Under the pieces are notes generated by a model that worked only from the letters and a program-made list of their open reading frames with translations, ran no database searches and was not told the DNA's origin. From assembly GCA_947373225.1 (NCBI GenBank), contig CANBWX010000001.1, positions 1 through 64,000 of the forward strand: 64,000 nucleotides of DNA, written 5' to 3'. The position numbers were made by a program, and so were the translations under genes. This document shows, piece by piece, positions 18,748 to 33,688 of this stretch (positions are counted from its first letter, which is position 1; the number at the start of each line of letters is the position of its first letter). Source of the DNA: Flavobacteriaceae bacterium (lineage in GTDB: Bacteria; Bacteroidota; Bacteroidia; Flavobacteriales; Flavobacteriaceae).

Positions 18748-18833
18748 GATACAATTCTAAGTGACTAAATGATTAAGTTCTTGAAAAATTGAAATTAGAA
18801 GCTATGAAATAATCTCTTAAAAAAGCAGATTCC

Positions 18834-18914
18834 CTAGCCCTGATAGCAACGGAAATCCTTTATGGTTTTTCTTTAAAACCATAAAGATTGAAGTGAATAG
18901 CAGGAGAAAGCTCC
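18834..18914 (+). repeat. Intergenic repeat family copy 1 (conserved flanks, variable hairpin)
   Basis: ctagccctgatagcaacggaaatcct-ttatggtttttctttaaaaccataa-agattgaagtgaatagcaggagaaagctcct. Confidence 0.75.
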
Positions 18915-23427: not shown

Positions 23428-23527
23428 AGTAATCAAACTTAAATTTATGTTTTAGACATTTATTATCTATAGCGTAAATCTAATGATAAATTAAGAAATT
23501 CAAATTAGATTATTTAAATAATAGTCA

Positions 23528-23562
23528 TAAAAAAACCATCAGGCAAGCCGTGATGGTTTTTC
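23528..23562 (-). terminator. Strong intrinsic terminator (11-bp stem) between pdxH and permease
   Basis: aaaaaccatca ggcaagccg tgatggttttt; U-rich tract on minus strand. Confidence 0.8.
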
Positions 23563-23608
23563 TACTAATCATAAACAAACAAAATCTCAATTATTATTTC
23601 GTATTATT

Positions 23609-23650
23609 AGGCTAAGTTTTAAGTAGATTGTGGGGCAAACTTCTTAAATT
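23609..23650 (-). repeat. Triple repeat, unit A
   Basis: ggctaagttttaagtagattgtggggcaaacttcttaaa. Confidence 0.85.
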
Positions 23651-23683
23651 CATTCTAATTGAGAACATCATTCATAAATAGCA

Positions 23684-23730
23684 TGTTAAGTTTTAAAATA
23701 AATTGTTTGGAGCAAACTCTTTTAAATCTT
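23684..23730 (-). repeat. Triple repeat, unit B (diverged)
   Basis: tgttaagttttaaaataaattgtttggagcaaactcttttaaatctt. Confidence 0.75.
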
Positions 23731-23744
23731 TATTATATTTTAGT

Positions 23745-23790
23745 AGGTTAAGTTTTTAAGTAGATTGTGGGGCAAACTCTTTTAAACTCT
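23745..23790 (-). repeat. Triple repeat, unit C
   Basis: aggttaagtttttaagtagattgtggggcaaactcttttaaactct. Confidence 0.85.
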
Positions 23791-23815
23791 TATTTTTTGT
23801 TCTTATTTCTTAGAT

Positions 23816-23848
23816 CAAATATACAACAATCATTAGATTAAAAACAAA
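23816..23848 (-). promoter_or_regulatory. Bacteroidota-type promoter TTTG-N21-TATATTTG
   Basis: CAAATATA 23816-23823 and CAAA 23845-23848 on + strand. Confidence 0.55.
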
Positions 23849-23941
23849 TATAATCGATGATATACACAAATTTACAATAATAATATATAATTTCTTACTA
23901 AAATATAAATAATAGTAAGCGCTTTAAAAAAAAATGCAGTT

Positions 23942-24586
23942 CTAAGGGGCGAGTCTTTCTATTTTCCAAGAATAATCCTCTTGCAAATGATAGCGAATTC
24001 TATCATGCAATCTATTGGGACGACCTTGCCAAAATTCAACTTCTATAGGACGAACTAAAAAACCACCCCAAAATTGAGGTCGAGGAATTTCTTTTCCTTC
24101 GAAATCTTTTTCTAATTGTTTTAAACCATCTTCAAGAACAACTCTCGATGAAATCACCTCACTTTGGTTAGAAACAATAGCCCCTAATTTGCTTCCCGTG
24201 GGTCTGGATTCAAAATAACCATCCGAAGTATTCTCAGATGTTTTCTCAGCAATCCCTTTTATAATCACCTGACGCTCCATAGAATGCCAGAAAAAAGAAA
24301 GACAAATATTGGGATTATTGGCAATAGCTCTCCCCTTTTCGGAATTATAATTGGTATAAAAAATAAAACCTTCATAGGTGTATTGTTTCAAAAGTAAAAC
24401 GCGCGATTTCGGAAAACCATCTAATCCAAAAGTTGAAACCGTCATCGCATTTACTTCGTCTACACCTCCAAAATCTTCCACTTCATGAAACCATCTATTG
24501 AATAAATTAATTGGATCTTCCGGAATATTAGTTTCCAAAAGCTCGCTTTTTTCATACGATTTTCTATAATTGCCTAACTCTTTCAT
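23942..24586 (-). CDS. pdxH: Pyridoxamine 5'-phosphate oxidase
   Basis: NAMTVSTFGLDGFPKSRVLLLKQY, FYTNYNSEKGRAIANNP, C-term RPNRLHDRIRY...ERLAP; start trimmed to MKELGNYRKSY. Confidence 0.94.
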   Translation of the reverse strand: MKELGNYRKSYEKSELLETNIPEDPINLFNRWFHEVEDFGGVDEVNAMTVSTFGLDGFPKSRVLLLKQYTYEGFIFYTNYNSEKGRAIANNPNICLSFFWHSMERQVIIKGIAEKTSENTSDGYFESRPTGSKLGAIVSNQSEVISSRVVLEDGLKQLEKDFEGKEIPRPQFWGGFLVRPIEVEFWQGRPNRLHDRIRYHLQEDYSWKIERLAP

Positions 24587-32543: not shown

Positions 32544-32630
32544 GGGCGTGCCCCTTAGGGTCGGGCTTTACGTTACAATCTTTTACTTTTTCAAGAAAAG
32601 TAAAAGGATTTTCACTTCAATCCCTCACGC
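32544..32630 (-). repeat. Intergenic repeat family copy 3
   Basis: minus strand gcgtgagggattgaagtgaaaatcct-tttacttttcttgaaaaagtaaa-agattgtaacgtaaagcccgaccctaaggggcacgccc. Confidence 0.75.
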
Positions 32631-32645
32631 AGAATTCGTGCAAAA

Positions 32646-33449
32646 TTACAATTTATAATGATTCATTAACATTTTTTCATAGACTTTATCAGGAAGAATT
32701 CGTTTGAGAACAATCGAAAATTTCTGCATAAAAACACCTACTTTATAATGAATTTTTGGATTTGGATTTAAGATGATTTTATAAACAGCTTCTGCCATTT
32801 CGTTTGGATTGCTACCGCTATCAACATGCTCATTCATCATTTTAAGCGTATTTCCATACGGAATTTCATAAGCCGAATCCTTTATTAATGGCGCATGAAA
32901 CCGACCAGAAGCAATATTCGTAGCAAAATCTCCCGGAGCCACATTCGTAATATAAATCCCAAATGATTTTACTTCCATTCGCAACGCTTCGGTAATGAGT
33001 TCTAATGCACCTTTCGAAGCCGAATAAACGCTTCGATACGGCAAACCCATATAGGCTGCAATTGATGTAATATTAATTATCAACCCCGATTGTTGAACAC
33101 GCATTTGTGGCAAAACCGCTTTCATCACTTCAATAGGACCGAAGAAATTAGTCTCAAAATTATTCTTGATTTCATTCGCTGGAATTTCTTCCAAAGGACC
33201 AGTAATTCCAACACCAGCATTATTGATCACAATATCTAATTGACCTGTCAGAGCAATAACTTTGGCTACAGCCGTGACAATTGTATCGGTATTTCGAACA
33301 TCTAAAGCGACCAGCGGAAAAACAGAATTCAAAACCTGATCTGGATTCCGGCTTGTTCCATAAACGATGAAACCTTTATGGTGCAAAAACTCGCCAATAG
33401 ACTTCCCTATTCCCGAAGAACCTCCTGTAATTAAAACTACTTTATTCAT
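32646..33449 (-). CDS. SDR family oxidoreductase
   Basis: VLITGGSSGIGKSIG, VINNAGVG, YSASKGAL. Confidence 0.9.
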   Translation of the reverse strand: MNKVVLITGGSSGIGKSIGEFLHHKGFIVYGTSRNPDQVLNSVFPLVALDVRNTDTIVTAVAKVIALTGQLDIVINNAGVGITGPLEEIPANEIKNNFETNFFGPIEVMKAVLPQMRVQQSGLIINITSIAAYMGLPYRSVYSASKGALELITEALRMEVKSFGIYITNVAPGDFATNIASGRFHAPLIKDSAYEIPYGNTLKMMNEHVDSGSNPNEMAEAVYKIILNPNPKIHYKVGVFMQKFSIVLKRILPDKVYEKMLMNHYKL

Positions 33450-33551: not shown

Positions 33552-33560
33552 TAAAAAAAT

Positions 33561-33653
33561 GGCAAGCGACCTACATCGCACCGCTCAACCACGTACCCTT
33601 GCTATGTTCCCATCCTGGGGGATTTTGCAGGAGCTGGTCGTGTAGGACTTGCC
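33561..33653 (-). ncRNA. ffs: Bacterial small SRP RNA (4.5S-like)
   Basis: minus strand ggcaagtcctacacgaccagctcctgcaaaatcccccaggatgggaacatagcaagggtacgtggttgagcggtgcgatgtaggtcgcttgcc; closing stem GGCAAG/CTTGCC followed by T-run. Confidence 0.9.
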
Positions 33654-33657
33654 GGTG

Positions 33658-33688
33658 CAAATATACAATCTATTTTATATTTTTGCAA
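33658..33688 (-). promoter_or_regulatory. SRP RNA promoter TTG-N20-TATATTTG
   Basis: CAAATATA 33658-33665, CAA 33686-33688 on + strand, ~5 nt upstream of RNA 5' end. Confidence 0.6.

Follow-up and report, generated by a model that had tools for sequence, protein, structure and literature searches.

In CsrB and RsmZ, variable numbers of repeated hairpins mimic the sites that mRNAs carry near their start codons. EutX/Rli55 from Enterococcus and Listeria is a small RNA (sRNA) that holds the hairpin site of mRNA leaders and thereby sequesters the RNA-binding regulator EutV (PMC5821096). In Bacteroides, the multicopy sRNAs FopS and GibS act near start codons and have been linked to an RNA-binding protein (PMC11697453), while Rfp18 of F. 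psychrophilum is conserved within Flavobacterium, contains several stem-loops and has a deletion phenotype on protease mRNAs; it was reported in F. psychrophilum and F. columnare (PMC9723704).

The window analyzed here, the whole stretch of 64,000 nucleotides from a Flavobacteriaceae bacterium, contains a predicted sRNA that recalls each of these systems in part. As in EutX/Rli55, a small RNA carries the hairpin site of mRNA leaders, and as in CsrB and RsmZ, with which it is alike in multiplicity only, it does so repeatedly. With Rfp18 it has in common several stem-loops and conservation in Flavobacterium, and with FopS and GibS the multiple copies, the occurrence in Bacteroidota and a connection to start codons. 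We propose that it derives from the leader of mRNAs for CAP-domain lipoproteins and may act as a titrating decoy of a factor that recognizes this leader, an account that we regard, taken as a whole, as evenly balanced between right and wrong.

Promoter, repeats and terminator in the window

The locus follows pdxH and precedes a gene for a nucleoside:H+ symporter (PF03825); its features are collected in Table 1. The initial annotation had described a candidate RNA of about 280 nt with its own promoter, three hairpin repeats, a strong terminator and no open reading frame, and this description was borne out in all its parts. TTTG-N21-TATATTTG is found on the minus strand exactly where the promoter had been placed, and the proposed length agrees with the predicted RNA. 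All three repeats were recovered, the middle one, which has diverged and contains a 2-nt insertion, being matched at E=7e-5 by a family model built from relatives and from the window's own copies, repeat 2 included. The other two repeats have an exact 21-mer in common, AGTTTGCCCCACAATCTACTT (23641-23621 and 23778-23758), for which the expectation was 0 in 100 shuffles. The arms of the terminator (23564-23551 and 23541-23528) are 93% complementary and accompanied by a T7 run, and no sizeable frame exists in the region, the longest one with an ATG comprising 19 aa and lacking conservation. As evidenced by the comparison to dinucleotide shuffles, the 288-nt RNA folds better than expected (z=-2.59, 3/200). 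Conservation of the repeats among related Flavobacterium, on which the proposal had been made to depend, is seen at about 20 orthologous loci. Note that a short frame, MN(D/K)VLN*, follows the middle copy in the window and in the orthologous locus L121, but is not conserved elsewhere.

Table 1. Positions of the features of the sRNA locus and its neighbors within the window.
Feature	Position	Strand	Remarks
pdxH, upstream syntenic anchor	23942..24586	-	PF01243, PF10590
Promoter region	23816..23868	-	conserved TGTGTATATCATCGATTATATTTG box; -33 TTTG 23848-23845; -7 TATATTTG 23823-23816; present in 19 CDS-less loci
Predicted sRNA, about 280 nt	23529..23808	-	predicted 5' end, placed by the -7 box; maximum ORF 19 aa
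Repeat 1, leader-mimic hairpin and tail	23745..23793	-	GTTTGCCCCACAATCTACTT at 23777-23758; model 56.5 bits, E=1.7e-7
Repeat 2, diverged copy	23683..23733	-	GTTTGCTCCAAACAATTTATTTT; model 44.7 bits, E=7e-5
Repeat 3, leader-mimic hairpin and tail	23608..23656	-	GTTTGCCCCACAATCTACTT at 23640-23621; model 56.5 bits, E=1.7e-7
Conserved 3' linker, last repeat to terminator	23561..23592	-	AATTGAG...GATTAGTAGA; conserved within the sRNA clade
Intrinsic terminator	23528..23564	-	14-nt arms and T run; compensatory changes in 5 pairs, 15 species
Promoter-like site of the nucleoside:H+ symporter	23475..23504	-	TTTG 23504-23501, N18, TAGATTTA 23482-23475; seen in the window and also in relatives; 3' of the sRNA terminator

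A search of the whole window with Rfam 15 at gathering score gave no family match to the sRNA region, and at E<=5 the region itself returned sub-threshold chance matches only. The gathering matches in the window are two Flavo-1 RNAs and a small SRP RNA, at 18832-18911 (+), 32555-32646 (-) and 33556-33661 (-). BLAST searches against phages and plasmids likewise yielded chance matches only, and thus nothing that would indicate a mobile or phage element.

The leader element of CAP lipoprotein genes

The repeat sequence occurs twice more in the genome of the window (contig C93), each time just 5' of a gene for a CAP-domain (PF00188) lipoprotein of about 167 aa, and these two are the only CAP genes found in that genome. 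Adjoining them, the contig encodes a long protein built from numerous near-identical repeats CYQTATWNPTTCQYDVTGEQPAAPTV (L006 7628-10336, -). Scanning a single genome for each species gave 113 stretches with the element, almost all from Flavobacterium, a set that includes bins labelled otherwise but with flavobacterial-looking content. The ATG of a CAP lipoprotein gene follows the element at 38-41 nt in nearly every one of these stretches. Over 92 loci this distance is 37-43 nt with a standard deviation of 1.0, whereas the distance from promoter motif to element is far looser (standard deviation 18, obtained with a rough pattern and indicative only). Because of this difference we regard the element as tied to the start of translation, and a role in cis that concerns translation and is exerted at the level of RNA is indicated.

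Beyond the genus, no element was found in 398 other genomes of the family (E<=1e-5, strict filters), and exact matches in Emticicia and Hyphomonadaceae records, with no CAP gene downstream, look like chance. Many loci originate from metagenome bins, part of which bear incorrect species names, and the E-values of the models are rough. Contigs labelled as Klebsiella, Bifidobacterium and Lentimicrobium MAGs (L066, L109, L042, L056) carry Flavobacterium genes and are mislabelled or contaminated bins. In the window's own genome the hairpin model also matches, with E=0.009, the start of a rhodanese-like gene (C45:13204-13251, L134), where EVCPTST is encoded through GTTTGCCCCACATCTACT, probably a coding coincidence.

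The consensus of the element is a hairpin, UUUAAAG.AG.U.UUG-CCCCA-CAA.U.CU.CUUUAAA, with the tail ACUUAA. In a structure alignment of 64 diverse copies the hairpin is paired in 83.8% of cells and shows 29 double-change cells, compared to 12.3+-2.6 after shuffling (0/500); it also exceeds slid controls in its score for pairing and covariation, and its CCCCA loop is close to invariant. An alternative stem, AAGUUU/AAACUU, was rejected, with 1 double-change pair against 2.9 in shuffled alignments and thus no excess of covariation. Note that RNAalifold did not arrive at a consensus structure for these 64 copies, so that the stem, which is AU-rich, is weak and its structural support moderate. In several Flavobacterium loci the CAP mRNA itself contains two tandem leader hairpins at a distance of 42-51 nt (L020, L027, L032, L046, L074, L095, L096, L107, L108, L113, L122, L126), and duplication therefore occurs in cis as well.

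The CAP genes and the sRNA loci also share a promoter element. Allowing at most one mismatch, its pattern is found in the window's genome only at the window locus and at the first of the two CAP genes, the other one following at 2 mismatches; other matches to the promoter element in this genome (C14, C167, C44) were discarded, as the stretch shown contains no leader hairpin. Repeated TCGATT/AATCGA half-sites extend over the -33 region (e.g. window 23868-23829, -), and since this element with its half-sites is common to CAP genes and sRNA, a dedicated transcription regulator is suggested.

CDS-less loci and the origin of the sRNA gene

Loci in which the element follows pdxH without an adjacent CAP gene comprise the window, 15 cases from the pattern scan and 4 from the model search. 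These CDS-less loci contain 1, 2, 3, 4 or 6 copies of the element, and linker and terminator are conserved in all but L075, which is devoid of a terminator. In the 19 loci examined the promoter is invariably kept in place, the predicted RNAs range from 148 to 483 nt, and six of them do not contain a single ATG. The terminator stem covaries across 15 species, with 20 double-change cells, all within the terminator, compared to 7.0+-1.9 in shuffled alignments (0/500). A model of 138 positions separates the full-length sRNA from leaders alone, in that 17 of 397 Flavobacterium genomes score at 95-143 bits and the next matches are leader-only with at most 64 bits. Together with the conserved promoters and the covarying terminator, this distribution lends strong support to the earlier proposal of a discrete non-coding RNA of about 280 nt with a promoter and terminator of its own.

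Across the 19 loci the identity of the core is 0.99, a value inflated by the fact that 15 of them were found by exact pattern or are the window itself, and that of the tail, up to the would-be start codon, is 0.87, as compared to 0.65-0.70 in the spacers. The four loci found by the model (L146, L150, L153, L154) retain the same 15-nt core. That the core stayed nearly invariant after the loss of the coding sequence argues for a function of the sRNA in trans.

Most other Flavobacterium with the element have a CAP lipoprotein gene, complete with its leader, directly after pdxH. In a tree of 72 pdxH protein rows, a single branch splits the CDS-less from the CAP-gene state, corresponding to 1 change versus 17.0 in shuffled assignments; the tree is unrooted (midpoint-drawn), and the separating branch has an SH-aLRT support of 76%. 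As judged from record names, species with a CDS-less locus possess a CAP gene with leader elsewhere, several of them after cytidylate kinase, and a genome search confirmed this separate copy in F. alvei, F. fluvii, F. cellulosilyticum, F. soyangense and one MAG. In the genus scan, no CAP-leader match was listed for two genomes with the sRNA, whose completeness is 64% and 81%. As a single change of state is sufficient to explain the tree, the sRNA most likely has one origin, the loss of the coding sequence from a CAP mRNA after pdxH, and we infer that this loss is the derived state because the CAP gene occupies this position in lineages that are deep and diverse. To our knowledge, the emergence of a new sRNA gene can seldom be followed in sequence. 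In the present case one syntenic slot is occupied by the complete mRNA in the majority of element-bearing species and by the multiplied leader alone in one clade, and with both states found in the same slot, the steps of the birth of an sRNA become readable and testable.

Proposed mode of action and relation to known systems

In the mechanism that we propose, a gene for a CAP-domain lipoprotein would formerly have followed pdxH and lost its coding sequence, with the promoter and the translation-control hairpin of its leader retained, the hairpin multiplied to 1-6 copies and a terminator closing the transcript. The surviving CAP genes elsewhere in the genome have kept the same leader 37-43 nt 5' of their start codons. 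A putative factor in trans, most likely an RNA-binding protein, would recognize the CCCCA-loop hairpin along with the ACUUAA tail beside the CAP start codon and set the translation of the CAP mRNAs, and the sRNA, with multiple copies of this site and no start codon, would titrate the factor. As the promoter element is common to both, sRNA and CAP mRNAs would be co-induced, and the sRNA would rise with its targets and buffer their control. At the level of sequence the locus has an independent promoter and terminator, no coding sequence, and a structured site that also occurs in mRNA leaders of the same genome. This is the anatomy of a decoy, and from the mimicry and multiplicity of the site we infer that the sRNA may act as one; note that single-copy CDS-less loci exist and that multivalency is therefore not essential. 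Hfq was not detectable in the window's genome, and its one RRM protein is a candidate partner of leader and sRNA, nothing more. The finding points to a putative leader-binding factor that controls CAP lipoproteins in Flavobacterium, and we know of few RNA-binding regulators in this group.

Alternatively, the sRNA might base-pair in trans with its CCCCA loops as mRNA seeds, the CAP leader having already been a 5'UTR-derived sRNA whose function the pdxH locus kept. Some sRNAs typically use C-rich loops in several copies as their seeds, and the GCCCCAC loop hardly varies across the alignment and has outlived the loss of the coding sequence. A precedent is Rfp18, which was proposed to pair from one stem-loop (PMC9723704). 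We nevertheless consider such pairing unlikely, if deserving of attention. In a genome-wide test of 12-mer anti-sites with a reversed control, sites TTGTGGGGCAAA with up to one mismatch were not clearly enriched (26 in total, 22 besides the four exact element copies, versus 14 in the control), so that wide loop-mediated pairing is not favored, and the fixed spacing between element and ATG as well as the retained tail by the start codon are better explained by mimicry of a site that acts in cis. Good pairing of the 3' linker to a CAP start region is limited to one such region in three species: GATTAGTAG (window 23561-23592, -; L088, L121) complements CCUACUAUUAUG at the start codon of one CAP gene, and the pairing ranks at 0.01-0.05 among controls only in the three-species subclade of the window. 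In most species the linker ranks at 0.6-0.98 among control start regions, and antisense pairing to CAP starts was rejected there.

It is very improbable that the locus is a non-functional relic, a decaying leader array of deleted CAP genes that is transcribed without a role. Copy numbers from 1 to 6 and the divergence of some copies are in line with decay, but in spite of the single-change ancestry the core is 0.99 identical against 0.65-0.70 for the spacers, the promoter is kept in all 19 loci, and compensatory changes preserve the terminator stem. Marginally less credible again is an array at the level of DNA, with repeats that bind a DNA-binding regulator. Conserved tandem repeats do adjoin a promoter whose TCGATT/AATCGA half-sites are themselves repeated, but the former are always located 3' of it on the transcribed strand, their spacing is tied to the ATG, the hairpin covaries, and a conserved terminator lies downstream. 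The other option raised in the initial annotation, an attenuator or regulatory leader of the nucleoside permease, is co-directional with that gene and would end about 100 nt 5' of its ATG, but it can hardly be maintained, as the permease has a conserved promoter-like site of its own 3' of the terminator, two sRNA loci (L075 and L098) are without a permease downstream, and the repeats belong to CAP leaders.

If the sRNA does titrate a CAP-leader factor, EutX/Rli55 would be the closest known case by mechanism. EutX is gated by a cobalamin riboswitch and features a dual hairpin that controls termination, whereas the window sRNA has one CCCCA hairpin per unit, in 1-6 units, and its site is one that lies by a start codon. 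Searches with Rfam over the whole window and the region gave no riboswitch match that would place a cobalamin riboswitch upstream of the site, and in the absence of this switch and with a different hairpin the sRNA is not a member of the EutX/Rli55 family. The window-type full-length RNA is confined to the 17 of 397 genomes of the genus, and neither F. psychrophilum nor F. columnare has a record among the exact element matches of the one-genome-per-species scan, a collection in which the presence of these two species is unverified. Identity with Rfp18 is unlikely given this species distribution, and the two RNAs are probably distinct. FopS differs in being a dispersed single RNA with a single-stranded seed instead of tandem hairpins that mimic a leader. 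In contrast to CsrB and RsmZ, the loops of the window sRNA are CCCCA and not GGA, and it can be traced to a single identifiable mRNA leader. The more specific reading, in which the sRNA was born once by deletion of a coding sequence, the leader retaining and enlarging a function in trans, and as a multivalent decoy now controls those CAP lipoprotein genes that survived at other places, in the manner of CsrB and EutX but with a new RNA-binding partner, is put forward tentatively, as we hold it to be somewhat short of probable. If true, it would extend the principle of CsrB and EutX to the Bacteroidota.
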